Shown here: in pieces, positions 4,595-46,773 of the stretch
Position numbering within the stretch: the first letter of the stretch is position 1
Layout: the number at the start of each line of letters is the position of its first letter
From: a virus
Direction: 5' to 3' (one strand)
IMG/VR virus record: IMGVR_UViG_3300009130_000050
Span: 1-46,773 of that record
Length of the DNA: 46,773 bases
Position numbers and translations under genes: made by a program
Notes under the pieces: model-generated
Databases searched by the model: none
Seen by the model: the letters and a program-made list of their open reading frames with translations, nothing else
Told to the model about the DNA's origin: nothing

Positions 4595-5926
4595 ATGGAA
4601 GAAGAAGGAGAAGAAATGTTCGCAACTGCAGATGCGGACGAAACAGTAATGGATGAAACTGCGGACGAGGTCAGGTATGGCCTCGAAGACGAGCCTTGGT
4701 ATATGCGTGAGGTTCGTATGACTCTGGAGGAAGAGCTGCACGACGTCGATGTCGACGTTGTGACAAGAGCTGTCGAAGCTCTTTCTCAGATGTCCGGTAA
4801 CGGCCAGGCTGTACAGATCTGTGAGAAGATCAGTATGCCGAAGCTCGTTAACGAAGATGTCAAAAAGGCAGCAGAGGAGCTGGACCTGGATTCAACCAGG
4901 TTCTTGGTAGCGATGTACTACCGGTTCCAGAAGGCTCGCATGGCCTTCGACCAGCAGAAGAAGCACTTGAGCGAGGAAGCTCAGGGTAACCTCTGCGTGA
5001 CCGGATTCTCCAAGCTCTCGAGCAGCTGCGAGAAATTCGTCCACAGCATCATGGATCACTACTGCACGGTCCATCCCGTACTGAAGTGGTGTACGGCAAA
5101 CGTCGGGGTTGGTCCCGTTCTGTCGGCCGGACTCCTGGCTCACATTAGGATTATCGGAGACAACGGGCAGGTTGTTTGCCCGACTGCCGGACATATCTGG
5201 AGCTTCGCAGGCTGGGATCCCACTCGTAAGTGGATCTCTGCTAAACAGGGTCAAACGGCCCTGAAGAGACATGGGTTTGACCCGGGCTCGTTAAAGAAGG
5301 TTCCGAGAGAAACCATGCTTCAGATCGTAGAAGACCTTGGAGGAGATTCCAGGATCTTATTCGGCTTGAAGAACGCAGAAGTGGTCAAAGCCAAGGATCT
5401 CTATAACACCATTGTGAAGCGGCCCTTCAACGCAGAATTCAAGAAGCTCTGCTGGAAAGTTGGCGTGAGCTTCAAGAACACCTGTAACTCAGTGGATAAA
5501 CTAGGGGAGCGTTCCTACGGTACTATCTATAAGGAGCGCAAGGAAATGGAGACCCGGAAGAACGAGAACGGAGATTATGCTGACATTGCCAAAGACTTGG
5601 CAGGTACTGTAGGTGCTACCACTCATGCCCATAAGCACTACTCGGAGGGTCGCCTTCCCCCTGCTCACATACAGGCCAGGGCTCAGCGTTATGCAGTCAA
5701 GATTTTCTTGGCTCATTTGCACGAGGTAATGTTCCGGTACTACGTAGGAGAAGAACCTCCTCGTCCTTACCCGATCATCCATCAAGGACACGCTCACGAG
5801 ATCCGGCCGTTCGTACCGACCAAGATCGAAGAACTCGACGACTTCATTGCGGAGCAGGCCGTAAAGCAAGCTGCAAGGCAAGCTGCCAAGAAAGCTGCCA
5901 AGAAAGCTGCGAAGAAGTCTGATTAA
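4595..5926 (+). CDS. IS110-transposase C-terminal-domain (Transposase_20-like) protein
   Basis: This 443-residue protein matches the C-terminal half of IS110-type transposases: GVGPVLSAGLLAHI (about residues 171-184) is a helix-hairpin-helix like the family's PGIGPxTAAxLLAEI, followed by IWSFAGWDPTRKW and, later, a helical ARAQRYAVKIFLAHLH segment. The N-terminal RuvC-like DEDD nuclease domain of IS110 enzymes is absent; residues 1-130 are acidic and helical instead. The C-terminus is a basic AAKKAAKKAAKK tail. I infer a nucleic-acid-binding protein rather than an active transposase. GGAAAGG precedes the ATG. Isoleucine codons are about 13 ATC, 6 ATT and 1 ATA, opposite to the ATA-rich neighbours, pointing to recent transfer or selection for high expression. 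The strong terminator at 6008 follows. Confidence 0.75.
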   Translation: MEEEGEEMFATADADETVMDETADEVRYGLEDEPWYMREVRMTLEEELHDVDVDVVTRAVEALSQMSGNGQAVQICEKISMPKLVNEDVKKAAEELDLDSTRFLVAMYYRFQKARMAFDQQKKHLSEEAQGNLCVTGFSKLSSSCEKFVHSIMDHYCTVHPVLKWCTANVGVGPVLSAGLLAHIRIIGDNGQVVCPTAGHIWSFAGWDPTRKWISAKQGQTALKRHGFDPGSLKKVPRETMLQIVEDLGGDSRILFGLKNAEVVKAKDLYNTIVKRPFNAEFKKLCWKVGVSFKNTCNSVDKLGERSYGTIYKERKEMETRKNENGDYADIAKDLAGTVGATTHAHKHYSEGRLPPAHIQARAQRYAVKIFLAHLHEVMFRYYVGEEPPRPYPIIHQGHAHEIRPFVPTKIEELDDFIAEQAVKQAARQAAKKAAKKAAKKSD

Positions 5927-6007
5927 GAAAAAAAATCTGGACAGTATGTCTAATTTTGAGTACGGCTTGTTTTGTCTTTAATTAGACACAAACTAGACTG
6001 AACAAAA

Positions 6008-6054
6008 GGGAGTTGTCGGCGGCAATAAAAACCGCCGGCAACTCCCCCTTTTTT
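6008..6054. terminator. Strong bidirectional intrinsic terminator
   Basis: A 15-bp arm at 6008-6022 (GGGAGTTGTCGGCGG) pairs with 6032-6046 with one G-T wobble around a 9-nt loop, followed by T6 at 6049-6054; the AAAA before the left arm gives a short U-run for the opposite strand. It lies between the convergent ends of the IS110-like gene (plus) and the terminase gene (minus), as expected for a shared terminator. A second inverted repeat, TGTCTAATT/AATTAGACA (5947-5955 and 5980-5988), lies just upstream. Confidence 0.85.
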
Positions 6055-6067
6055 CGCTATCAGTGCG

Positions 6068-7924
6068 TCACATAGAAAAAGCTTCAGGTATTCCGTGTAT
6101 AGATGTGCCTCCCATATGTCCAGTAGTTATGGAACGCTTCATCCTTTCAAGCAATCCTTTGTCCTGGACTATGTTTTCCTGAAGAAACACACGTCCGACT
6201 ATGTATGCAAAATTGACCGCATGCAGTATGTCGTCAGACTTTGCCCCGTGCTTTCTGTATAAGAACCCAGTAGAACCACCCGGAGTTTCAGAAGGTACAC
6301 GTATCATGTTAAGAAAGTCTGACAAGTAAGAAGATATCTTTTCTCCGTTATGGTAAAATTCCCAGTCATAAGTTCGTATCCGGGATTGTCTGATAGCGTA
6401 GTATAAAGCTGTTATGGACTCCGTGCGATTCAGATTGTACATATTAAACAAATTAGGACTCTCCTTAAGGATATCTGTATTGGGTCCTCCGTATTTGAAT
6501 ATAAGGTTATTTTCTGGAGCCATCCTTTCACGCAAAAGCATATTGTAGGCGTATCCTACTCCGTAGTCAGCGCCTAACGCCATGCCGTTGTACTTATTGT
6601 GATGGTGTATTATGTCATCCGCTATGACTGGATACGACATACCCTCATAGCGCTTCAAATGTATTAACTCGAAGGAGTAGTCATGGTTAAGTCCTAGGAT
6701 TACATGTACTGTGTAAGATAGCTTGGTCTTGTTAGAAGTGTCATAGTCTGAACCTCCCCAGTCGCATCCTGAAAACACTCCCATGTATCGACCTTCTTGC
6801 GCTTTAGACTCATATGGCTCGGATTCTGACCCTAGTATGCATATACGCCTAAGATCTCCTTCTGTAATTTCTCTCTCTCCTTCTTGAGTGGGTATACCTA
6901 AGTTTTCTTGAAAAAATTTACGAGGATCTTGCTCGATTTTCTTTCTATATATTTCCTCCCACCGAATTCTGTTGTTAACCACAGCAGGTACGATCAACTG
7001 AGGTATATGGAAACCTATCTGCCCAAGCTTGAATTTGTGCTGGTCCAAGTGTTCAAAGTGACCTTTCTTGACGTCAAGTAAAGCACCGCACTTGGCACAG
7101 GACACTCCCTTTATCTGTATCATGTCCATAACACCGTGCTCAGGAGTGGGTATGTTGTCATGATTGCAAGAGTCACACCGCATGACCCAGACTCCTTGAG
7201 ACGAGCTGGAATACTTCTCTTCTAGCGCAGTATCAGTAGTGAGAGATGTGCCTGCGTAGAAAGTCACGGGATTGGAAGAGGCACTTTGAATTTCAGAAAC
7301 TTCGGGCTCGAATGTAGGATCAAAATTCTGATACTCGTCAAAGAGCAGCTCATCCGCAGATTTACCACGAATGTTAGATACCTGAGTGTCTACGTTAAAT
7401 AACTCGACACGCGATCCATTAGGGTACTCTTTTAAATAAAGATTCTGTCTGAACTTGTAGCTCTGTACGGGCATTCGAAAAGCCTGCTCTAGCTCTTTGA
7501 GCTTATTTGCATAAGTTTTCATTTGTTCGCTTTTGGGAGCTATATACAAGCTAGAAAACTTTGGTATTATGTGAGCAAACATTCTTTGCCTGGCTGCCAT
7601 AGTAGTAGATTTGGCTATCTGCCTACTCCCTCTTACCACCATGTACCCCCCTACATTAAGCGCCATTAAATGAAACGCATAAGGGAAGTTAGACAAAGTC
7701 ATAGGGTCATTCTTGGGGTAGGCTGGATAATAGTACGATAACAAGAATGAGGGGTTGTATTTACAATGACGTAACAGTAACTTCAGGGTGTCCTGGGCGC
7801 TTTCAAAATACTTGGGGCTTTTCTCAGCTCGCTCTGATAGGTGTTGAAATTCTCTAGTTAACCTTATAAGCTTATCTCTAAACTGTCCGTCAGTGCGTAC
7901 GGTATGTTCTAAATCAAAATACAT
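6068..7924 (-). CDS. terL: Terminase large subunit
   Basis: This 618-residue protein is the DNA-packaging motor. The ATPase domain shows a Walker A-type GSRQIAKST at residues 99-107 and Walker B LLFDEY at 193-198. Two C-x2-C pairs (Cys250/253 and Cys276/279) form a probable zinc knuckle inserted after the ATPase core. The nuclease domain has GCDWGGSD (Asp388), GADYGVG (about 448) and SDDILHAVNFAY (about 575), the usual three acidic clusters of RNase H-fold terminase nucleases. Length is typical. It is alone on the minus strand, converging on the shared terminator at 6008, and its start codon is 1 base from the divergent 7926 gene, so its promoter must lie inside that gene. No small terminase gene is recognisable nearby. 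Confidence 0.92.
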   Translation of the reverse strand: MYFDLEHTVRTDGQFRDKLIRLTREFQHLSERAEKSPKYFESAQDTLKLLLRHCKYNPSFLLSYYYPAYPKNDPMTLSNFPYAFHLMALNVGGYMVVRGSRQIAKSTTMAARQRMFAHIIPKFSSLYIAPKSEQMKTYANKLKELEQAFRMPVQSYKFRQNLYLKEYPNGSRVELFNVDTQVSNIRGKSADELLFDEYQNFDPTFEPEVSEIQSASSNPVTFYAGTSLTTDTALEEKYSSSSQGVWVMRCDSCNHDNIPTPEHGVMDMIQIKGVSCAKCGALLDVKKGHFEHLDQHKFKLGQIGFHIPQLIVPAVVNNRIRWEEIYRKKIEQDPRKFFQENLGIPTQEGEREITEGDLRRICILGSESEPYESKAQEGRYMGVFSGCDWGGSDYDTSNKTKLSYTVHVILGLNHDYSFELIHLKRYEGMSYPVIADDIIHHHNKYNGMALGADYGVGYAYNMLLRERMAPENNLIFKYGGPNTDILKESPNLFNMYNLNRTESITALYYAIRQSRIRTYDWEFYHNGEKISSYLSDFLNMIRVPSETPGGSTGFLYRKHGAKSDDILHAVNFAYIVGRVFLQENIVQDKGLLERMKRSITTGHMGGTSIHGIPEAFSM

Positions 7925-12431: not shown

Positions 12432-13867
12432 AAATATATTGGTACAGCGGCAATTTAGTTGTCGTAGACTCTTTTGAAGAGTTAGAAAAATTTCTTACAA
12501 TGAGTAAGAAATCTCTAGAGTGGAACAGCTCTAGAATGAGAAGAGAGACAAAAAGGTACAGTCAGCCAGTTTTCGAAGTTCTTTATGAGGGTCCTGATAA
12601 CAGAACTATAATGACATTTCAGGGATTTAAAAACGATGTGTTGAGGCTAGCATGCAAACACAACAAACCTGTCGAGTTCTACGATTGCAGAAGAATCATG
12701 CCCGAACCTAGAATGAGTTTGGCGCACGGCTTCAGAAATGATCAGGAAAGTTTATTTAACGGGCTTCTGGATAAGGGCGAGTCGGGCATATTGAAAGCTC
12801 CGACTAGGTACGGCAAAACGGTAATGATGGTTAACACCATGAGGACTTTTCCCAGAGTCAGAACTGTTTTGGCTGCTCCAGGCGTGGACCTGCTGGGACA
12901 ACTAGTAGAAGAACTTAAATCATGGATGCCCGAAAGAGAGATAAAAGGTATCTTCACTGGCAGTAGAAACAGAGTACCTTCGGAAGATATAACTGTATGC
13001 TCTTTCGATTCGTTATCTAAAGTGAATCCAGAGAACGTACACTTACTTCTTATAGACGAGCCTCATGCAGCTGTGTCCGAGTCAAGGGCTCCGTTGCTTG
13101 CTGGATTTAAAAACGCCAGAATATATGGTTACGGAGCCACTCTTAAAGGCAGGTACGACGGCGCCGATAAATTGATAACGGGACTTATAGGACCTATACA
13201 CTCTGAAAGAACTTTTTCTGAGGCCGTGGAAGAGGGAGCTATCTGTCCGATAAAAGTTTCTTTTGTCAAAGTACCTTTTGAGCCTTTCATATGCCGAGAC
13301 CGAGCTACCGCTTACAAGAGATTGGTTTACAAGAACGATCAAGTCTTTAGTTTGGTAAGAGAAATAGCTAAGAACAAAATACCTCAGGACTGGCAAACTC
13401 TCGTATTCATAGACCAGAAGAAGCAAGCAGACACGATGTCGCAAACCGTAGAGGATTGCGAAGTAGCCATAGCTAGTAGGTTAAAGGTAAAGGAGAGGAA
13501 AGAGCTGTTTGAAAAAATGGCTAATAATGAGATCAAAAGATGTGTCGCCACCAGTATTTACGCACAAGGAGTAACATTCCCAGACCTGCGTGTAATGATA
13601 AACGCAGCAGGTGGTAGTGGATCCATAAGTAGTGTCCAGAAGCCCGGTCGTCTAGCTCAAGTACGTGAAGGCAAGGCCATGGGACACTTGGTTGACTTTA
13701 TGTTCGAACCCGTTTTCGACCATACTAGCTGGCAACAAAATACTAGTGGAGAAAATATGATGTGGTCTTTTGTAGTCAACGACTGTAAAGCTCGTCTCAA
13801 AGTTTACAAATCACTGGGATACGAAGTAGAGATCCTGGAATCAATAAATGACTTAAATCTGGAATAA
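12428..13867 (+). CDS. UvsW-like SF2 DNA helicase
   Basis: This 479-residue superfamily 2 helicase has motif I APTRYGKT (residues 124-131), motif II LLIDEPHA (DEPH, about 206-213), a motif III-like YGYGATLKG, TLVFIDQKK (motif IV region) and motif VI QKPGRLAQ. About 110 N-terminal residues precede the ATPase core, as in T4 UvsW, which unwinds recombination intermediates and R-loops and helps switch from origin-initiated to recombination-dependent replication. The role assignment rests on the SbcC/SbcD neighbours and domain size; another phage SF2 helicase subgroup is possible. It overlaps both neighbours by 1-4 bases. Confidence 0.82.
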   Translation: MKIYWYSGNLVVVDSFEELEKFLTMSKKSLEWNSSRMRRETKRYSQPVFEVLYEGPDNRTIMTFQGFKNDVLRLACKHNKPVEFYDCRRIMPEPRMSLAHGFRNDQESLFNGLLDKGESGILKAPTRYGKTVMMVNTMRTFPRVRTVLAAPGVDLLGQLVEELKSWMPEREIKGIFTGSRNRVPSEDITVCSFDSLSKVNPENVHLLLIDEPHAAVSESRAPLLAGFKNARIYGYGATLKGRYDGADKLITGLIGPIHSERTFSEAVEEGAICPIKVSFVKVPFEPFICRDRATAYKRLVYKNDQVFSLVREIAKNKIPQDWQTLVFIDQKKQADTMSQTVEDCEVAIASRLKVKERKELFEKMANNEIKRCVATSIYAQGVTFPDLRVMINAAGGSGSISSVQKPGRLAQVREGKAMGHLVDFMFEPVFDHTSWQQNTSGENMMWSFVVNDCKARLKVYKSLGYEVEILESINDLNLE

Positions 13868-14466
13868 TGCGCGATGAGTCGAATGACAGAAAAAAACTTG
13901 CACAAGAAATAAGAACCCTCTTTCAGAGGGAGAAAAGAGAGCAGTTAAAAAAGCCTTACAGGCCTCACCCTTCTCACGATACTGACGAAGTTTGGGAGAA
14001 GGCTGCATTAAAGTGCATGGAACTCGATGCTGATCCTTACAGTTTTGTTAGGTCAGCTTTCGAGTTCTGTTTAATAAACGCTAAAAATTCGAAAGGACCG
14101 TTCCCTAAACATTTAGGGAGCGGAGCTATGAATAGGTGGTACGCCAACTACGCTGGAGACAAAGATACTGGCGAAACGTGTGTCGAAGAAAACCTATCGC
14201 CTTTCGAAAGTCAGGTACGTTCTGATATAAATACGTTATCTCAAATGGCTTACAGTGCATTTATGTACCGGGGAGTGCCTATAGAAGATACGCTGTGCAT
14301 GGAGATAACTCCTGCCCCAGCGTATGCGAGATTCTTTCTTATGCCGGATGCTTTCATGGTACGGCATAAGTACAGGAAGCAAGTACTATATCAAGTAAGC
14401 AGGAACCCGAGTCTCGGAAAAGCTTTGGAAAGGCTTGGACTCAATATGGATAAATTATATGAATAG
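13867..14466 (+). CDS. Protein of unknown function upstream of the DnaB-like helicase
   Basis: A 199-residue protein with a basic, helical N-terminus (DRKKLAQEIRTLFQREKREQL) and a more ordered middle (WEKAALKCMELDADPYSFVRSAFEF). It overlaps the UvsW-like gene by one base and the helicase gene by eight. Gene position directly before a replicative helicase would suit a helicase loader or primosome component, but no motif confirms this. It has no ATPase motif. Confidence 0.65.
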   Translation: MRDESNDRKKLAQEIRTLFQREKREQLKKPYRPHPSHDTDEVWEKAALKCMELDADPYSFVRSAFEFCLINAKNSKGPFPKHLGSGAMNRWYANYAGDKDTGETCVEENLSPFESQVRSDINTLSQMAYSAFMYRGVPIEDTLCMEITPAPAYARFFLMPDAFMVRHKYRKQVLYQVSRNPSLGKALERLGLNMDKLYE

Positions 14467-15895
14467 ATTCGAAGATCTGGTTAAGTCGAATCCGGAGTTC
14501 TTTGAGGATCAGGTAATCGCCTGTTTTATAGCTAGTAAAGAGTTCACTCAGAACTATGCCCCATCGATTATAGAATATAATATGGCTCTAAGAGGAAGGC
14601 ATAAGCTTTCTCAGAACAAGAACCGTGTTGTGTTTGATGGGATCATGACGTTCCGAGAAGCAAACTCAGATACAGACCTAGTACCTCGAACGTGGATTGA
14701 CGACTATATCACAAATGCCCGGGATCAAGGTCGGTTACTGCCGGCAGAAGTAGCTACGATAGCGCAGCATCTTGATCACCTTTATGAGCGTGCCACGGAT
14801 ACTACGGTATCTACTATAGATGGAGCGCCGTTTAAAACTTGGTTCGATGTATCTCTGTCCGAAGACATCGTAAAATATGTAACTAATAACGAAAGCGATG
14901 TTTCTATCACAGACATAAAGTCTATGATAGCTAACGTAGAGAACATAGCTCCGGAAGACGAAGACTCCAGTGTAGTTAGTTTTGACCAGGCTATGATGCA
15001 CGACAAAGGCAACAACATAGCTAATGCCGTATCCAGCATAGGTAAACTTAACGTAGCCATGGGTGGAGGGTTTCGTATGGGAGAGTCAACTCTGATAGCA
15101 GGAGCTACTGGAGGAGGCAAAACTGTAATGGCAGCTATGCTTGCAATGGATTTTTGTCAGGCCGGTAGAAAAACGGTGTTCGTCACCACTGAACAGAAGC
15201 CTTACGAAATACTGCCACGTATATTCTCCAACAGGTGCTCCATACCTATGGACAAGTTTGAGGAAATGGGAGAAGGATGCATACTGCCACCTGCAGTCAC
15301 TAATGTACCGGACTACATGATCAACGTAGCCGCTACCAGGAACACGTTTGCAGAAACTCTTAAGTTCTTAGACTGGTCCAGCGCGTCTGGTAAAACTGCG
15401 GAAGACGATCTCGAAAGAGAACTCCTTAAGCTAAAAGAATCTTTCGATTTTGACTGTGTTATATTCGACTGGGTAGGAGGAGCTTTGTCTCGAACCAGAG
15501 ATACTCTTAGAGAGGTTTACTTAGATGCCGCGAACACACTGCACGACTTGGCTAAAAGACATAACTGGATAGTAGTTTTGTTTGCACAGTTAAACAAAAG
15601 ATTGTGTGCAGGCAAGAAATACTGTAACTCAACCATGCTGGCCGAATGTACGGCTATGGCGGATAATGCATCCAATGCCGTTTATATAAGTGCGTTAAGG
15701 TCGTCCGAAGATTCGGACTCTGCGACTAGCTATAACGAACTACAGTATTTTAATGTGGATAAGGCTAGAAAAGGCCCTAACGGCAGGTTTCAAATTGTTA
15801 GAGATTTCCGATATCAAAGGTTTATAGAACCTCATTTGCAAGCTGCTGCAAGAGCTGCAGTAGTTGCAGACAGTTCTCATCACCTGGCTAGGTAG
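14459..15895 (+). CDS. DnaB-like replicative DNA helicase
   Basis: This 478-residue RecA-fold helicase of the DnaB/gp41 group has Walker A AGATGGGKT (residues 214-222), FVTTEQKP (about 241), a Walker B-like CVIFDWVGG (about 332) and the sensor strand IVVLFAQLNK (about 370). The C-terminal core begins near residue 190 and is preceded by an N-terminal helical domain. I chose the ATG at 14459, overlapping the upstream stop (ATGAATAG), over a TTG at 14435. It would encircle the lagging strand and work with the primase at 17071. The C-terminus is an Ala-rich tail (AAARAAVVADSSHHLAR). Confidence 0.87.
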   Translation: MNRFEDLVKSNPEFFEDQVIACFIASKEFTQNYAPSIIEYNMALRGRHKLSQNKNRVVFDGIMTFREANSDTDLVPRTWIDDYITNARDQGRLLPAEVATIAQHLDHLYERATDTTVSTIDGAPFKTWFDVSLSEDIVKYVTNNESDVSITDIKSMIANVENIAPEDEDSSVVSFDQAMMHDKGNNIANAVSSIGKLNVAMGGGFRMGESTLIAGATGGGKTVMAAMLAMDFCQAGRKTVFVTTEQKPYEILPRIFSNRCSIPMDKFEEMGEGCILPPAVTNVPDYMINVAATRNTFAETLKFLDWSSASGKTAEDDLERELLKLKESFDFDCVIFDWVGGALSRTRDTLREVYLDAANTLHDLAKRHNWIVVLFAQLNKRLCAGKKYCNSTMLAECTAMADNASNAVYISALRSSEDSDSATSYNELQYFNVDKARKGPNGRFQIVRDFRYQRFIEPHLQAAARAAVVADSSHHLAR

Positions 15896-15900
15896 GCTTA

Positions 15901-16935
15901 ATGTCTAAAGAAAACTTGGTGTTCTCTTCCTCGCTGTCATATGCTTCGGGGAGAGGGGACTGGATACCGGAAATATATAAAAAGATATTCATGATCAAAG
16001 GGCATACGGATCTGGTCCTGTGTCATGTGTTCAGTAAAATTGTTTACTGGCACGCACCGGGTAAGACGGGTAAGAAAAAGTATGGAGGAAGCCTGCCTTT
16101 TCTAAGTAATAAGATATTGGCTGAGCAGACTGGTCTGTCTTTGAAGCAAGTACGAAGAGCTACTGAATCTCTGGAAAAGGACTATAAGTTCATAAAGCGA
16201 TCCAGGAATGGCAGGAAGACTCATTTCGACTTGAACAAAAATAAAATAACGGAAGTCTTTCTACCTCACATGAGAGAGATGGGTAGTGAAGATATTCTTA
16301 TTATGTCTTCCAAGACAGAAGATTCCAGTGTGCCCTCCAGGGCACACGAAGATAATTCCCGTTTGCCCTCTAGGGCACACGAAGGCAGTTTTGCGGGCCC
16401 TACAGGGCACGCGTATAACATAAAAGGAAATCATAAATTAAACACCGAAATTAAACTTGCTAAAAAATCTGATCTGGAATCAGAGTGCGAGGATAAGCTG
16501 TTTCAGTTAAAGTCTAACAGCATGTCAGAAGAAGATTATCTACTGGCATGTAAAAGCGTAAAAGTGTTTGTGACTACCCAGCTCTCCAATGACGTAGATC
16601 CGATTGCTATATTCAAAGATTTCTTAGCCAATCATTTGATAGATCAAGTAGCTTATCCTGGGTTCGCCAGACTGCACTGCATATGCAACATGGAAGTGTT
16701 TTCCGATATGAGTGTTGACGGTGTAAGAAAACTCTTGTACGTCGTGAAAGGTGAATGCGTAGGTAATCCGGAGTTGGCTAAGATGCTTGGTAAGTACTGC
16801 CCCAGTCTCGACTATGCGTCGGTAGGTTTGGATCTGAATGAATATGTGTGTAAATCGAAACAAGCTTTGTCCAAGATATTTGACGAAGCTCTGATAAAAA
16901 CGAAAGAATTGGAAAATTATGACAATGAAAGTTAA
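15901..16935 (+). CDS. Winged-helix replication initiator / replisome organizer, with embedded origin-like repeats
   Basis: This 344-residue protein has an N-terminal winged helix-turn-helix domain (about residues 35-120: LPFLSNKILAEQTGLSLKQV...ATESLEKDYKFIKRS), a linker (about 130-180) and a helical C-terminal domain, the same architecture as lambda O-type initiators. The linker-coding DNA holds three evenly spaced palindromes followed by an AT-rich tract, so the protein probably binds its own gene as an origin and recruits the upstream helicase. The ATG at 15901 lies 5 bases after the helicase stop. Its end overlaps a 55-codon gene by 11 bases. Confidence 0.72.
   Translation: MSKENLVFSSSLSYASGRGDWIPEIYKKIFMIKGHTDLVLCHVFSKIVYWHAPGKTGKKKYGGSLPFLSNKILAEQTGLSLKQVRRATESLEKDYKFIKRSRNGRKTHFDLNKNKITEVFLPHMREMGSEDILIMSSKTEDSSVPSRAHEDNSRLPSRAHEGSFAGPTGHAYNIKGNHKLNTEIKLAKKSDLESECEDKLFQLKSNSMSEEDYLLACKSVKVFVTTQLSNDVDPIAIFKDFLANHLIDQVAYPGFARLHCICNMEVFSDMSVDGVRKLLYVVKGECVGNPELAKMLGKYCPSLDYASVGLDLNEYVCKSKQALSKIFDEALIKTKELENYDNES
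16330..16471. repeat. Three palindromic iterons plus AT-rich tract inside the initiator gene: putative replication origin
   Basis: Perfect or near-perfect palindromes occur at 16330-16345 (GTGCCCT-CC-AGGGCAC), 16364-16377 (TGCCCT-CT-AGGGCA) and 16397-16408 (GCCCT-AC-AGGGC). Their centres are 33 and 32 bp apart, about three helical turns. An approximately 60-bp AT-rich stretch (about 16411-16471) follows directly. They encode a dispensable-looking linker (VPSRAHED, LPSRAHEG, GPTGHAY). This mirrors the lambda origin, where iterons and an AT-rich region lie within the O gene. Function as an origin is inferred. Confidence 0.6.
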
Positions 16936-17092
16936 CGATACCGCTGTTACGGAATGTAACGAAAAAATCAAAACCAAGGAAAGAGATATCAAATCAAGGG
17001 ACGACAAAAGACATATAGTTTCCCGACTGTCTCACGAGAAAGGCAAGTCTTCCATAAAAAGCGGGGGTAGATGGTGCCGACCCCGACGATAA
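16925..17092 (+). CDS. Small basic protein (55 aa)
   Basis: This short frame begins at the ATG at 16925, overlapping the initiator gene by 11 bases, and ends in TAA at 17090-17092, overlapping the primase-like gene by 22 bases. The 55-residue product is strongly basic (KTKERDIKSRDDKRHIV...SGGRWCRPRR). It fills what would otherwise be a gap in a tightly packed operon. Overlap spacing and composition make it plausible, but there is no homology evidence and no strong ribosome binding site. Confidence 0.45.
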   Translation: MKVNDTAVTECNEKIKTKERDIKSRDDKRHIVSRLSHEKGKSSIKSGGRWCRPRR

Positions 17093-18234
17093 AGTATACT
17101 TCTGCGGAAGAGGGAGACCTGGACGAAGAGGCGCTCATACTGGCGCAGATGTTGTCGGTCAGGCATGGTAACGTGAGAGTGGCGAGAGAAGCCAGCGGAG
17201 TACACTTCTACATAGCTTCGCCGGTTTGTCTGCAACAGTACGGTGACGACGAGTTGTGGAAGATGCACTTGGCTATAAACGTCGACAAGTATTTGCGTGA
17301 TCGCGAAGCCAACGACGTATGCGCATTGTGCATGAAGACGGACAGGCCTTATTCCATGTCTGACTTATTGTCTATGAAGAACCTTGAAAAGAGGGGATTC
17401 AAAGACGTGTCTCACATGATCACGATAAAGTCCGACGAGCAATATCTGGAAGAAGACGGTTTTGGCAACATGGTGCCCAAGTCTCCTGGAAAGATAATAC
17501 CCATCACCCAGCTTACGAGTACTCATCCCGTCATCCAATACGTGAAATCGAGAAACTTCGATCCTCAGCAGCTTGAGAGGCAATTTGCCGCTGCTTATTG
17601 TTATGAGGAGAGGGAGGATATATTCTACAGGAGGTTGGGAGGCGGGTTCAAAGCCACCCCCCAGGGACGCCTTATATTCTACGCCTACATAAACGGAGTC
17701 CGGAAAGGATGGCAGGCCAGGATACTCGAGTTCGTGGAAAGAGACGTAAAGTACTATTACCATCCCTACGTTGATCAGTGGATACCCATGGAATCAAAGA
17801 CACCCAGCGGATGGGTCACGATAGATCCTTCCGTGGAGAAGTGGGACCCAGCCAAATACGTTCTGGCCCATGGTGCCAAGAAAAACTCGTTTATAATGGG
17901 TTATGATGCAGCCGTGGATTTCAACAATGACCGCAAGGACAGGGTAATCGGTCTCACCGAGGGCCCTCTCGATGCGGCCAGGCTTGGCCCTCCGTTTTGT
18001 GCCGTAATGGGGAAGTTCCTGCATTACGACCAGGCCAAGTGGTGTAATGGATTCGACCGCGTCGTACTTGCAATGCAGAACGACGAGGCCAGTGAAGGTC
18101 TGGCTCAAAAGACCTCTTCTCTTCTTAGTGTAATGGGAATACCGCTCGAAGTGGTACGACCGCCCGAACAGTACAACGACTTCGGAGACATGCACCCGGA
18201 CGAGGTAACTCCAATACTAGAGAAAATATTATAA
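17071..18234 (+). CDS. Toprim-domain DNA primase-like protein
   Basis: This 387-residue protein has a C-terminal Toprim domain: EGPLDA with Glu297, a following CAVMGK, then LAMQNDEASEGLAQ (residues 334-347) and a final EQYNDFGDM. In most Toprim primases the second motif reads DnDxAG; here the first Asp is replaced by Gln336, so metal binding may differ. The region before it resembles the RNA polymerase part of DnaG-type primases (RLIFYAYINGVRKGWQARIL). It should lay down primers with the DnaB-like helicase. GGGGG sits 5 bases before the ATG. Codons are GC-richer than in neighbouring genes, and A-to-G third positions are common. Confidence 0.75.
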   Translation: MVPTPTIKYTSAEEGDLDEEALILAQMLSVRHGNVRVAREASGVHFYIASPVCLQQYGDDELWKMHLAINVDKYLRDREANDVCALCMKTDRPYSMSDLLSMKNLEKRGFKDVSHMITIKSDEQYLEEDGFGNMVPKSPGKIIPITQLTSTHPVIQYVKSRNFDPQQLERQFAAAYCYEEREDIFYRRLGGGFKATPQGRLIFYAYINGVRKGWQARILEFVERDVKYYYHPYVDQWIPMESKTPSGWVTIDPSVEKWDPAKYVLAHGAKKNSFIMGYDAAVDFNNDRKDRVIGLTEGPLDAARLGPPFCAVMGKFLHYDQAKWCNGFDRVVLAMQNDEASEGLAQKTSSLLSVMGIPLEVVRPPEQYNDFGDMHPDEVTPILEKIL

Positions 18235-18485: not shown

Positions 18486-21400
18486 AAAAGAAACTATATC
18501 CGGAGGTCTTTGAAGACCTGGAGCCTCCGAAGAAACTCAATAAGAACAGGCGTATCAAAGGTGTGCTGCACCTGGCTGGCGTGGGTTCCGAAAATCCGGA
18601 TATAATGTTTGTAGGACCCGTAGCGCTGGAAGAAGAAATTTCGGACAGATCCTCTCCTGCAAGGCTTTTGAAAGGACCTGCTTCGAATCTGTTTCACCGC
18701 CTTGCTGCAAAAGCTGGATTGGACTCCAAGTCTTACTACTACACGACCGTAGTCAAGTATGCCAAGGAGAACCATAGAGACAGTGCCAGGCCCAAAGCCG
18801 AGGATGTAAGATGGTGTGCTGAAATACTCAAGAACGAGGTGGAAACAAAAAAACCCAAGCTCGTAGTGTGTATGGGAAAGTGTGCTTTTGATTTCTTCGT
18901 AGATTTCAGAACTACTTTCAAAAGCGTGCAAGGAGGATTCTTCAAGAGCGAGGAATACGGAGTGGACGTCTACGTAATGGACATAATAACTACTCCGTAC
19001 TACAAGCCCGAGTTCATAAACAGATTCCTAGTCGATCTGCATGCCGTAAAATCCTATATGGACGACATAAAAGGCATATCCGTACCCAAGGTTGCTTGTT
19101 CGTATCAAACCATAGACAAAGTTTCGGATCTCGTGTCCTGGATGTCAGGCATACTTTCCAGCGACGTCAAGATATTGAGCGTTGACTGTGAGTGGGGAGG
19201 TCTGACTCATATAGACGGTGAGCTTAGAGCCATACAGATATGCTGGAAGCCCGGTGAGGTCGTTTATCTTAGGTTTAGAGGCAAAGGAGGTGTCTGGGCA
19301 TTCGACGAGCCTATGAAGGACGTATACGGCCTTGTGGGAAACTTCTTGAACAATCCCAGGTTTAAGTTCGTAGGTCACAATATATCTGCAGATTTGGTAT
19401 GGATGCAGAAGCACCTTGGAGTAGATACTTACAGGAGGTCGTACTTCGACACCATGCATGCCGAGTTCCTTATGGACGAATACGCGGATCTCAAGCTTGA
19501 GAGGTTGGCTATGAAGTACACGGATTTGGGTCGTTATGACATAGATCTGCTGATCGCTAAGAAAAGTCTCAAGATAGGAAAGGACGAAGGTTACGAAAGG
19601 ATTCCTGACGAAGTACTCATACCTTACGCCTGCAAAGACGTGGACGTAGTCATGAGGGCTTATCCAATACTTATGCAAAAGCTTTTCGAAGCTGGTTTGG
19701 ACGGTTATTATTTCGACATAGCCCTGCCCTACGTTTCGGACGGATTTTCCGTCATGTCCGATACGGGACTTCCAGTCAACAGGGACTACCTTGACGCCAT
19801 GCGTGAAGTCTTCACTGATAACGAGAAACTTCTTTTGATGGATCTGCGTATAAGAGCCAAGCAAGAAGCTACGATGATACTGGGAGCCAGGCTGGCGGAA
19901 CTGGATCCTGAAGCAGGGTCTGTTTGCTTTCTTAAACTCGTGGAAGAAGATAACAAGCGTCTGGAGCTTGAAGATTCTTATGCCGAAGTGAGTCCTATGC
20001 ATGTGGACAACGCACCATGGGACATAGATTCTACTGTAGAGGAAGTTCTTAAACGGTACTCCGACGCCAGGGAGTGGAAAGTCATGTCCAGGAGCGAGTT
20101 TAGTGAATTCAGAGAATCAGTGGATAACTCCAGGAAAAAATGTCTAGGGCTTTTCAAGTCTTTCGTAGGTATGGAAAAGTTTTCCGAACTCCTTCCTGTT
20201 TTCGACCATTGGTGGGATGCCAACCAGCTAAACATCAGAAGCGACCAGCACAAACGCAGGTGGTTGTTCGACGTTAAGAAGTTCGTACCAGTAAAGACTA
20301 CCCGAAAGGATGGTATCCAGCTGCCGTGGGAAAAAGTATTGGAGTTTCCCGAAGATAAGCAGAAAGAGTTTTCTGCAGCTACGGACAAACAGACCATAAC
20401 CATATTGGCGGAGCAGTGTCCTCTTGTTACCAGAGTTCTGGAATTGAATTCCGTAGGCAACATAGTTAAAGCGTTTCTAAAAGGTCCTGATAAAGACGGT
20501 AACGAGCAAGGTTTGCACAAATGGGTACAGAGCAACGGCAGGTTGCATTGTAACTTCGCCTGCACTGAGACAGGTCGCCCCAGGACTTGGAACCCTAATG
20601 TACTCAACTATCCAAAAGCAATAACGAGGCCAATAGAAGCTGCATTCAAAAGACTTGGTCAGGATAAGCCGTTTAGTCTTCGTTCTTGTGTTCAAGCTCC
20701 CGAAGGCTGGTGCTTGGTAGATGCCGACTTGGAAACTGCCGAGGTTCTGGGACTTGCTTATATATCAGGCGATTCGGAAATGATACAGGTGTGCTCTTCT
20801 CTGGACGAGAAATTCGTACAGATTTTCCCAGACAAAGTTGAAGAGGAGGGTATACCTTGGCTTAACTTCAAAGGTATTGACTGTGCCCGAGTTGAGAATG
20901 TGGAAGGCAAGGATCATTTGATTCGACTGGACTCTTCGGGAAATTTTGTCAGACCTTTGAGAGATATGCATTGGGAAATGGCTGAGACTATGACTGGAAA
21001 GGATAGAGAAGAATTGGATTCGGACATAGACAGAGTTTCTGGAAAAATAGGTATGTTTTCCATACCTTACGGAGCTTCTGCTAATCTGCTTGAACGTACT
21101 ATAGAAGGCATAACTGGAACCAAACCTGAGGAAGGTACCGGGGACAGGCTTATAAACGCTTATAGTAAAAAGTTCCCAATAGCTGCTGCTTTCTTGGATT
21201 CTCAAGAGGACCGTGTCGAAGACCCTGGATACTACAGATCCATATCGGGTAGAGTCAGGCATTTCCACGTACACCGCATAGGAGACATAGACGGTTTGTC
21301 CAAGTACGCCAGGAATTCCATAATAGCTCCTCTTACCAGGGAAGCCAGGAACTATCCTATGCAGGAGATTGTTGCAGCTACCATGGCTAGGGCTATTAAC

Positions 21401-21658
21401 ATAATGACCGAAAAGATACGTGAAGAAAAACTTCTTGCCAGGCCCATGATATTACTTCATGACGCTATGACAGTGTTATGCCCTATGGAAGAGAGATGGA
21501 GAGTAAAGGATCTTATGCAGGAATGCATGAGTACTGAAAACAAATGGACCGTGAATAATAATACTTTCGGATTTGCCATAGACTCTGAATTTACTTTTAG
21601 ATGGGGAATGAAGCCCAGCGATGAAGAAAAGAAGATTCTCTACTCGAAGGATACTTGA
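18482..21658 (+). CDS. Family A DNA polymerase with N-terminal uracil-glycosylase-like domain
   Basis: This is the replicative polymerase, 1058 residues from the ATG at 18482 (upstream in-frame extension to 18338 rejected, since it lies wholly in the previous gene). Residues about 40-185 resemble family 4 uracil-DNA glycosylases (DIMFVGP, YYYTTVVKYA, KPKLVVCMGKCAFDFF), but the usual GExPG and H-P-S sites are altered (VGPVALEEE; TPYYKPEF, with Lys for the His), so it is probably not an active glycosylase. A DnaQ-like exonuclease follows (D235/E237 in VDCEWGG; GHNISADLVW; CKDVDVV). The polymerase has motif A DADLETAEV (747-755), motif B K855...PYGAS and motif C HDAMTV (993-998); the Glu normally in HDE is Ala. 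A promoter-like element follows its stop. Confidence 0.92.
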   Translation: MKKKLYPEVFEDLEPPKKLNKNRRIKGVLHLAGVGSENPDIMFVGPVALEEEISDRSSPARLLKGPASNLFHRLAAKAGLDSKSYYYTTVVKYAKENHRDSARPKAEDVRWCAEILKNEVETKKPKLVVCMGKCAFDFFVDFRTTFKSVQGGFFKSEEYGVDVYVMDIITTPYYKPEFINRFLVDLHAVKSYMDDIKGISVPKVACSYQTIDKVSDLVSWMSGILSSDVKILSVDCEWGGLTHIDGELRAIQICWKPGEVVYLRFRGKGGVWAFDEPMKDVYGLVGNFLNNPRFKFVGHNISADLVWMQKHLGVDTYRRSYFDTMHAEFLMDEYADLKLERLAMKYTDLGRYDIDLLIAKKSLKIGKDEGYERIPDEVLIPYACKDVDVVMRAYPILMQKLFEAGLDGYYFDIALPYVSDGFSVMSDTGLPVNRDYLDAMREVFTDNEKLLLMDLRIRAKQEATMILGARLAELDPEAGSVCFLKLVEEDNKRLELEDSYAEVSPMHVDNAPWDIDSTVEEVLKRYSDAREWKVMSRSEFSEFRESVDNSRKKCLGLFKSFVGMEKFSELLPVFDHWWDANQLNIRSDQHKRRWLFDVKKFVPVKTTRKDGIQLPWEKVLEFPEDKQKEFSAATDKQTITILAEQCPLVTRVLELNSVGNIVKAFLKGPDKDGNEQGLHKWVQSNGRLHCNFACTETGRPRTWNPNVLNYPKAITRPIEAAFKRLGQDKPFSLRSCVQAPEGWCLVDADLETAEVLGLAYISGDSEMIQVCSSLDEKFVQIFPDKVEEEGIPWLNFKGIDCARVENVEGKDHLIRLDSSGNFVRPLRDMHWEMAETMTGKDREELDSDIDRVSGKIGMFSIPYGASANLLERTIEGITGTKPEEGTGDRLINAYSKKFPIAAAFLDSQEDRVEDPGYYRSISGRVRHFHVHRIGDIDGLSKYARNSIIAPLTREARNYPMQEIVAATMARAINIMTEKIREEKLLARPMILLHDAMTVLCPMEERWRVKDLMQECMSTENKWTVNNNTFGFAIDSEFTFRWGMKPSDEEKKILYSKDT

Positions 21659-21866: not shown

Positions 21867-23168
21867 ATGAGTATGTTAATAGGTGGCTCTCAAGCCGAAA
21901 CCTCACGTGGATTCACCCATGGATTTTTTCATGACGGTACCGTATCCACTCAATTCACGCCCAAGAAGGAATACTATCTGCGTATACTTCCGGCGTTTGA
22001 CCAAAGCAAGGTAGGCACTCCCGAGTACAAGGAGTCCTGGGTACCTTACAGGGACAGGGAACTCCCCGAAGACATCGCCACTAAGACTCCTGGATTCACG
22101 TCCTGGTACTTCGTGGTACAGGGGTATACGTTCTTTGGCAGGGGCACGCATTCTTTGCTTTCGCCTTTGTCTTATCCGACTAAAGGAAGTCGCTCCGGTA
22201 TAGATCCTATATTCGATATCAGGAATTACTGCCGTAAGAGTGAAGATCCAAATCTTGTAGCTCTTGTAGACGACAAGGCTTCAAAAGGATCTCCGCCCGT
22301 TCCCAATGCACGTTACTACGTGTTGGTGAACACTCTGATGATGACGGACATGACTTCCCGGAATACCGAAAATCAAATTGGTATATTTACCAACGCAGCC
22401 TGGAATGATTTCAAAGGCAAGTTGGCATTGCGTGCGGGTCGTGGTGATGAGGTAATATCTGCAGATTGGGAGGATTTCCTTTACGGGGACATCACTCATC
22501 CTGAACAGGCTCTAGCCGTTCGTGTTAAGGAGGCTACTATGGAGTCCAATCCCAACATCAAGTTCGCCGGCATGTTCTTGTCGAATGTTGATGGTAGGTT
22601 GGACGGTCACCAAAAGTGGTCTATAACTGACACTGAAGACTCCGGTAAGTCGGTACTTCAGTCTCGTTATGAGATCGGCGACATGGATAACGTGACCAAG
22701 ATCTGGACTTACGACGAAATGTTGGATCTTGTCGTACAGGATGGTGTCGTACCTTACGATGTAATCGAGAGAGCTTGTGCTCCGTATGCTCCTAACGGCA
22801 TACCTTCGCAGAGTAGCTCTAGCAAATCTGCTGATTACTCTATTCCCAGTAACGATGTATCTCCCAGCAACAGCTTAAGTCCAGCTCCTGCCGCGGCTGC
22901 TCCAGCTCCTGCTGCGACTGCTCCAGCTCCTGCTGCGACTGCTCCAGCTCCATCTGAGCCTGCTCCTTCATCTGAAGAGACTGCAACTCCGGTAGCAGAG
23001 GCTGTTAAAGTAGAGCCCGCTGCTTCGACTGAAGCAGGCAGTGAAGCTGAAAAAGCTCGGTACGAAGAACTCGCTACCAAGTTCAGGGAATCTCCGTCGA
23101 ACCTGGATCCAAGTGAACTTCCAGAGTTTTTCAACCTTTGTTCCAAACTTGGAGTAAGCCCTACCTGA
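21867..23168 (+). CDS. Probable single-stranded DNA-binding protein (gp32-like role)
   Basis: This 433-residue protein has a compact beta-rich N-terminal region (residues 1-300: YYLRILPAF, SWYFVVQGYTFFGRG, RYYVLVNTLMM), a flexible linker of APAPAAT repeats (about 335-360) and an acidic C-terminal segment. This order, OB-like core, Pro/Ala linker, acidic tail, together with its own promoter and placement between DNA polymerase and RecA-like genes, fits a T4 gp32-type SSB. I cannot see a diagnostic OB motif, so the assignment is from architecture and context. AAAGGAA precedes the ATG. The gene is terminated by a strong hairpin at 23193 and uses more GC-ending codons than most neighbours, consistent with high expression. 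Confidence 0.65.
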   Translation: MSMLIGGSQAETSRGFTHGFFHDGTVSTQFTPKKEYYLRILPAFDQSKVGTPEYKESWVPYRDRELPEDIATKTPGFTSWYFVVQGYTFFGRGTHSLLSPLSYPTKGSRSGIDPIFDIRNYCRKSEDPNLVALVDDKASKGSPPVPNARYYVLVNTLMMTDMTSRNTENQIGIFTNAAWNDFKGKLALRAGRGDEVISADWEDFLYGDITHPEQALAVRVKEATMESNPNIKFAGMFLSNVDGRLDGHQKWSITDTEDSGKSVLQSRYEIGDMDNVTKIWTYDEMLDLVVQDGVVPYDVIERACAPYAPNGIPSQSSSSKSADYSIPSNDVSPSNSLSPAPAAAAPAPAATAPAPAATAPAPSEPAPSSEETATPVAEAVKVEPAASTEAGSEAEKARYEELATKFRESPSNLDPSELPEFFNLCSKLGVSPT

Positions 23169-46274: not shown

Positions 46275-46773
46275 CGACAGTATTATCATTAATGAATGAA
46301 CCACGCTACAAGCGAGTACCAAGGCGTTTGAATGAATCATGTCCCGAGAGAGTCCCACTTTTTTCGAATGAACCATGGGTCTAGATAGTAACATGATGTA
46401 GAAGTGAATCAAGCGACGAAAGCGCACCACAAGACCGGAATGAATCAGTGATTTCGACAGTAACATATTCGATGAATGAGCCATTACTACCGATAGTAAC
46501 AACAAGACAGAACGAAATCTTGATAGAAGAGAGCACCATTCCATCCGATTGAAACATAGCGGTAAAACGTAACAAATTATCCGATTGAATCACCCCTTTT
46601 GAAAGTCTCAGGTATGGCGAATGAATCAGAAAAAAGCTAGAGTCCCAATACCTGCGAATGAATTATTTATATGGATAGTAACATTATTACCGAATGAACC
46701 CAAACTACACGATATAAACAAATAGATGAAGTGAATCACATCCACAGCGAGTACCAATAGAGCCGAATGATCC
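46258..46773. repeat. Alternating 10-bp box array with an 18-bp step (36-bp period), continuing past the right edge
   Basis: Two 10-bp boxes alternate at 18-bp intervals: box A (consensus GAATGAATCA; copies at 46294, 46330, 46366, 46402, 46438, 46474, 46510, 46547, 46583, 46619, 46656, 46692, 46729 and 46765) and box B (consensus GAGAGTAACA/GATAGTAACA; at 46276, 46312, 46348, 46384, 46420, 46456, 46492, 46529, 46565, 46601, 46638, 46674, 46711 and 46747). The 8-bp spacers between boxes vary freely. Three single-base insertions shift the phase by one, and every reading frame is interrupted by stops over the array, so it is most likely a DNA element rather than a repeat protein. A weak extra box A overlaps the end of the last gene. 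Confidence 0.85.

Follow-up and report, generated by a model that had tools for sequence, protein, structure and literature searches.

A candidate replication origin of phased palindromes inside the initiator gene of an uncultivated phage

The window, meaning the whole stretch of DNA analysed here, is a 46,773-base record of an uncultivated virus. Its replication locus holds the features below, where L002 and L004 are uncultivated relatives.

14459-15895, + strand: DnaB-like replicative helicase (PHROG 19, E 4e-27; Pfam DnaB_C, 2.5e-12)
15901-16935, + strand: winged-helix initiator gene, 344 aa, carrying the putative origin (PHROG, hhalign, BLASTP and BFVD matches)
15958-16275, + strand: predicted winged-helix DNA-binding domain, about residues 20-125 (AlphaFold helices and beta-hairpin)
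16330-16345, + strand: box 1, GTGCCCTCCAGGGCAC, 7 of 8 pairs symmetric (9 of 10 as a 20-bp extended dyad, 16328-16347)
16363-16378, + strand: box 2, TTGCCCTCTAGGGCAC, 6 of 8 pairs symmetric, in register with L002 6575 and L004 7293
16395-16410, + strand: box 3, GGGCCCTACAGGGCAC, 6 of 8 pairs symmetric, in register with L002 6607 and L004 7325
about 16413-16473, + strand: AT-rich tract, probable DNA-unwinding element, 78% A+T, with an imperfect 13-bp repeat
16429-16929, + strand: C-terminal helical part, about residues 177-343 (AlphaFold, moderate confidence)
17071-18234, + strand: primase with a TOPRIM domain (PHROG 47, E 1e-17; weak Pfam Toprim matches)
18494-21658, + strand: family A DNA polymerase with an N-terminal UDG-like domain (Pfam DNA_pol_A, 5.5e-31; UDG, 1.5e-11)

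The helicase start was taken as the ATG at 14459; the mechanical start is a TTG at 14435. A sequence-only reading of this DNA had placed the initiator gene between DnaB-like helicase and primase genes, and the PHROG and Pfam matches bear this out. The gene order helicase-initiator-primase is common to the window and to L002, L003, L004 and L020. Upstream of the helicase, a 199-aa gene (13867-14466) has no PHROG or Pfam match and is a candidate place for a helicase loader; L003 has a similar-looking protein at the matching position (5812-6387). Elsewhere in the window, a transposase-like gene (4595-5926; PHROG 4285, E 4e-27) adjoins the terminase large subunit gene on the opposite strand (6071-7924). 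Tandem 21-bp repeats at 22880-22984 encode a low-complexity linker, rich in Ala and Pro, in the C-terminal region of the product of gene 21867-23168. No other periodicity in the window is as strong as that of a degenerate, apparently non-coding tandem array at 46278-46773 (lag 36, z 8.5), with roughly 13 units by eye, which continues past the end of the record. Its 36-bp units carry two conserved blocks about 18 bp apart, TGaTTCATTCG and tGTTACTaTC on the - strand.

In PHROG, the 15901-16935 protein matches several families of replication initiators, O-like and others (E 2e-4 to 3e-3), including PHROG 678, 'replication initiation O-like' (E 2e-4), and PHROG 345 (E 1.4e-3). Its N-terminal domain matches an Acinetobacter phage DnaD-type initiator (hhalign 96.6%), and BLASTP pairs the protein with ORF9 of Bacillus phage PM1 (E 2e-7). 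When the predicted structure was compared with viral models by Foldseek, the top BFVD match was the PM1 DnaD-like protein (E 1.1e-4). Fold searches of the PDB returned only generic winged-helix proteins (MarR, ArsR, TFE) with weak E-values. Therefore, we base the fold assignment on the sequence profiles and the BFVD match to PM1.

Our AlphaFold prediction runs from the winged helix (pLDDT 77-94 over residues 71-120) through disorder at residues 130-179 to the helical part. The C-terminal half has no Pfam match, including to the DnaD (DnaB_2) C-terminal domain, and may be a diverged helical domain; we propose that the helical part is the helicase-contacting region. The three boxes fall on residues 143-170, within the predicted disordered linker. 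That the palindromes lie in the linker of a winged-helix initiator, as proposed from the letters alone, is supported by the predicted disorder and by the distant DnaD-like and O-like homology.

The boxes, their spacing and their uniqueness were computed from the DNA itself. The initiator gene contains three near-perfect palindromes with 16-bp cores and the core sequence GTGCCCTnnAGGGCAC, spaced 33 and 32 bp from start to start. These are the spacings given in the sequence-only reading, which also had the start of box 1 right but placed boxes 2 and 3 at 16364 and 16397, one or two bases off. Across the whole 46,773-base record, GCCCTnnAGGGC occurs without mismatch only at the three box sites. 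When up to three mismatches were allowed on both strands, a longer box pattern gave 7 matches versus 0.56 expected, a number that none of 100 shuffles reached.

The total palindrome count of the gene is unexceptional (P 0.12-0.19). After this plain count gave no signal, we adopted a tandem-palindrome score, which looks for two similar palindromes 18-45 bp apart. By this score, boxes 1 and 2 are the top pair of the entire window, and shuffling codons while keeping the peptide reaches the window's score in 3 of 1000 trials. For direct repeats, codon shuffling gives P values that are modest in several genes (0.04 in the window, 0.07 in L003). The signal is one palindrome repeated, rather than palindromes in general.

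The repeats could be a by-product of a repetitive linker peptide, kept for the protein rather than the DNA. Boxes 1 and 2 do share one reading frame and each encodes PSRAHE, and AHE..FAGP.G is common to the linkers of the window and L002. However, in box 3 the DNA recurs in another frame and is read as GPTGHA, which indicates that the repeating unit is the DNA motif, not the peptide. The same holds for L002, whose frame offset (0 then 2) matches. Moreover, peptide-keeping shuffles seldom reach the score of the window and never reach that of L002 or L020, and the peptides of L003, L020 and PM1 are entirely different while the repeats are still present. We consider a peptide origin of the repeats very improbable.

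The palindromes could also act as RNA hairpins in the mRNA, controlling translation or termination. The box stretch is predicted to fold strongly as RNA (z -6.2 in the window, -4.9 in L002), but copies of a palindrome are mutually complementary, so strong folding is automatic. Folding is unexceptional in L004 (z -1.3) and weak in L020 (z -2.4, with a near-empty centroid), and a search for terminator-like sites gave none at the boxes. Together, these points leave the hairpin explanation with hardly any likelihood.

An AT-rich tract of about 60 bp right after the palindromes had also been reported, and it is borne out. Positions 16414-16473 are 78% A+T, which places them in the top 0.3% of the record's 60-bp windows by A+T, and no other 60-bp stretch of the gene is less stable. 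In the window, L003, L020 and qsb1, the 60 bp 3' of the last box rank with the least stable DNA of the gene; in L002 and L004 they are not its least stable part. Identity at lag 13 is 0.57 in the window's tract; a 12/13-bp periodicity is strong in phages PM1 and qsb1 and no more than suggestive in the window and its group. The GC skew of the window does not switch at 16.4 kb; this carries little weight, since almost every gene between 8 and 46 kb is on one strand.

A protein scan of IMG/VR with the initiator found no close relatives. Therefore, relatives were reached through PolA, primase and helicase, with the polymerase as the anchor for L002, L004 and L003 (60%, 61% and 42% identity to the window in the polymerase, respectively). 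A search of IMG/VR with the paired window box returned three unrelated GC-rich stretches with no initiator and was discarded. L022, L025 and L009 had no clear phased repeats by eye and were left out, as was L008, whose record starts too near the primase. Between the helicase and primase genes of L022 (7201-8260), two overlapping ORFs of 121 and 270 aa take the place of the initiator, which suggests a winged-helix protein and a C-terminal protein encoded apart.

The sequence-only reading had called for a comparison of spacing and boxes in related phages. At the same place in the gene, L002 carries two very strong palindromes of a different sequence, around CCCATATGGG and 32 bp apart, and within its 167-kb record GCCCATATGGGC occurs only at these boxes. 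In a DNA alignment they are in register with boxes 2 and 3 of the window, from which they differ by 7 and 5 substitutions. Despite these changes, which fall on both arms, the symmetric pairs, 6 of 8 in both window boxes, number 7 and 8 of 8 in L002 (P 0.0012 and 0.0001 under a simple null of random substitution). Thus the architecture is kept while the boxes change, and the changes keep the symmetry. Drift of the palindromes under a conserved linker peptide, which had been named as evidence against an origin, is not what we see: the letters differ in L002, and palindromy, spacing and frame offset are kept.

The other relatives vary in strength. L004 has TACAAATTTGTA at the matching place with a poor partner 32 bp upstream (6 of 8 and 4 of 8 symmetric pairs, respectively), and its tandem-palindrome score is not above chance. 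Because its boxes are weak, the L004 case rests on position and would not convince by itself. L003 carries three 21-bp iterons, TGG(c/t)(a/g)AAAACCACA, at the corresponding place. L020 has four boxes, CACGACAAATTG(t/a)CG, that are 24, 21 and 21 bp apart, are followed by CATATATATAAAAAG and occur nowhere else in its 125 kb. Its protein cannot be aligned to that of the window, so L020 counts by synteny only. Across the whole locus, the tandem-palindrome score peaks at the box site in the window, L002 and L020.

We also compared cultured phages with homologous initiators. The best direct repeat lies just past the winged helix in PM1, Geobacillus PT9.1 and Exiguobacterium 23 (22 bp each) and in Acinetobacter IME-AB2 and qsb1 (23 bp each). 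Overall, 10 of the 12 genes compared have their best-scoring repeat pair there, although L004, L003 and qsb1 among these 10 miss P 0.05 by codon shuffling. Eggerthella phage LE2-3 has no comparable repeat just after the winged helix. The DnaD-like initiators of PM1 (ORF9), Acinetobacter and Geobacillus phages resemble that of the window in having a homologous winged helix followed by iterons in the same place, several with an AT-rich tract. They differ in their 22-23-bp iterons, about two helical turns rather than three, in their C-terminal parts, and in having loader or helicase genes next. No origin is annotated in the PM1, Acinetobacter and Geobacillus regions examined.

A 12-bp repeat (about TACAGAGAWTAC, read TTENTTEITT) stands after or instead of iterons in the PM1, Acinetobacter and SpaA1 initiators, and is possibly a conserved unwinding element. 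It lies at L026 5841-5886, at L018 2959-2982 and in L029 (the SpaA1 P41 gene). In PM1 and qsb1 the 12-bp-repeat tract follows the iterons, and in SpaA1 the best repeat is the tract itself.

Might the palindromes instead be intragenic operators, used by the winged-helix protein, or by some other regulator of the phage, to control how the replication operon is transcribed? The closest PDB folds are MarR/ArsR-type winged-helix repressors, which bind palindromes as dimers. However, the boxes lie some 430-510 bp into the reading frame, and promoter-like sites in the region number 8 versus 7.9 expected by chance, with none at the boxes. An operator would also sit poorly with 2-4 phased copies, with an adjoining AT-rich tract in several relatives, and with genes annotated as replication initiators. 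We regard operators as an unlikely explanation.

Origins inside initiator genes, with phage-specific iterons, are already established or proposed for lambda, P22, L and SPP1 (PMC6022878, PMC7466680, PMC8022706, PMC6316719). In lambda, the origin lies within the coding sequence of gene O, where the part for the DNA-binding N-terminus gives way to that for the partner-binding C-terminus; its dyad-symmetric boxes are repeated, each binds a dimer of O, and an AT-rich tract follows (PMC6022878, PMC7466680). P22 and phage L have an O-like initiator gene (gene 18 / gene 12) with its own iterons in the coding region, which shares a module with a DnaB-type helicase gene of the phage, and the iteron sequence varies between phages (PMC8022706). 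The oriL of SPP1, in gene 38, combines direct repeats bound by gp38 with an AT-rich unwinding element (PMC6316719). Judged from the DNA, the boxes and AT-rich tract of the window very probably form a phage replication origin inside its own initiator gene, working like those of lambda, P22 and SPP1 oriL.

At such an origin, dimers of the 15901-16935 protein would use the N-terminal winged helix to bind the three palindromes. With a spacing of 32-33 bp, about three turns, the boxes would share roughly the same helical face, so that the dimers could stack into a single nucleoprotein complex. This complex may then strain the neighbouring AT-rich tract (16413-16473) until it melts. Recruitment of the phage DnaB-like helicase would fall to the C-terminal helical part, with the phage primase and polymerase to follow. 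We infer the direction of replication, as well as binding, melting and hand-over, the latter three from lambda O (PMC6022878, PMC7466680) and SPP1 gp38 (PMC6316719). Because the DNA at the boxes encodes a disordered linker, the boxes and the DNA-binding specificity of the protein could change together within one transferable gene.

The parallel with the lambda O gene, drawn earlier with the proviso that the boxes differ, is supported by the linker boxes, the AT-rich tract, the distant O-like homology and the flanking helicase and primase genes. Both lambda and the window have several dyad boxes at regular spacing in the initiator linker with an adjoining AT-rich tract. However, the lambda origin is built from four iterons (six in Stx phages) with a hyphenated dyad of 18 bp, and its AT tract measures 39 bp, whereas the window has three boxes of another sequence at 33/32 bp, and its protein shows only distant homology to O-like profiles. 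Lambda takes the host DnaB through gpP, whereas this phage encodes its own helicase, primase and polymerase. P22 and L differ in their repeats of about 20 bp (P22) or 11 bp (L); the window has the order helicase, initiator, primase, plus its own primase and polymerase. SPP1 has oriR and a separate loader, gp39, whereas in the window we found no second copy of the boxes and recognised no loader.

Two things set the window apart: palindromes spaced at roughly three turns, and a lineage with its own helicase, primase and polymerase. In the open literature on DnaD-type phage origins with iterons, we found no account of this lineage. We tentatively suggest that it could represent a distinct sub-type of in-gene origin, although this is doubtful. 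In such a sub-type, palindromic dimer sites 32-33 bp (three turns) apart would load a phage-encoded replisome (helicase, primase, UDG-PolA) without a recognisable separate loader, and box and winged helix would change together between close relatives.

These results provide a concrete, testable origin candidate for a phage lineage known from metagenomes alone. They also suggest a rule for finding origins in phages with DnaD- or O-like initiators, namely to seek 2-4 phased repeats, often with AT-rich DNA behind them, just past the winged helix. Related phages whose boxes differ at the matching place offer natural material on how an initiator and its target change together.
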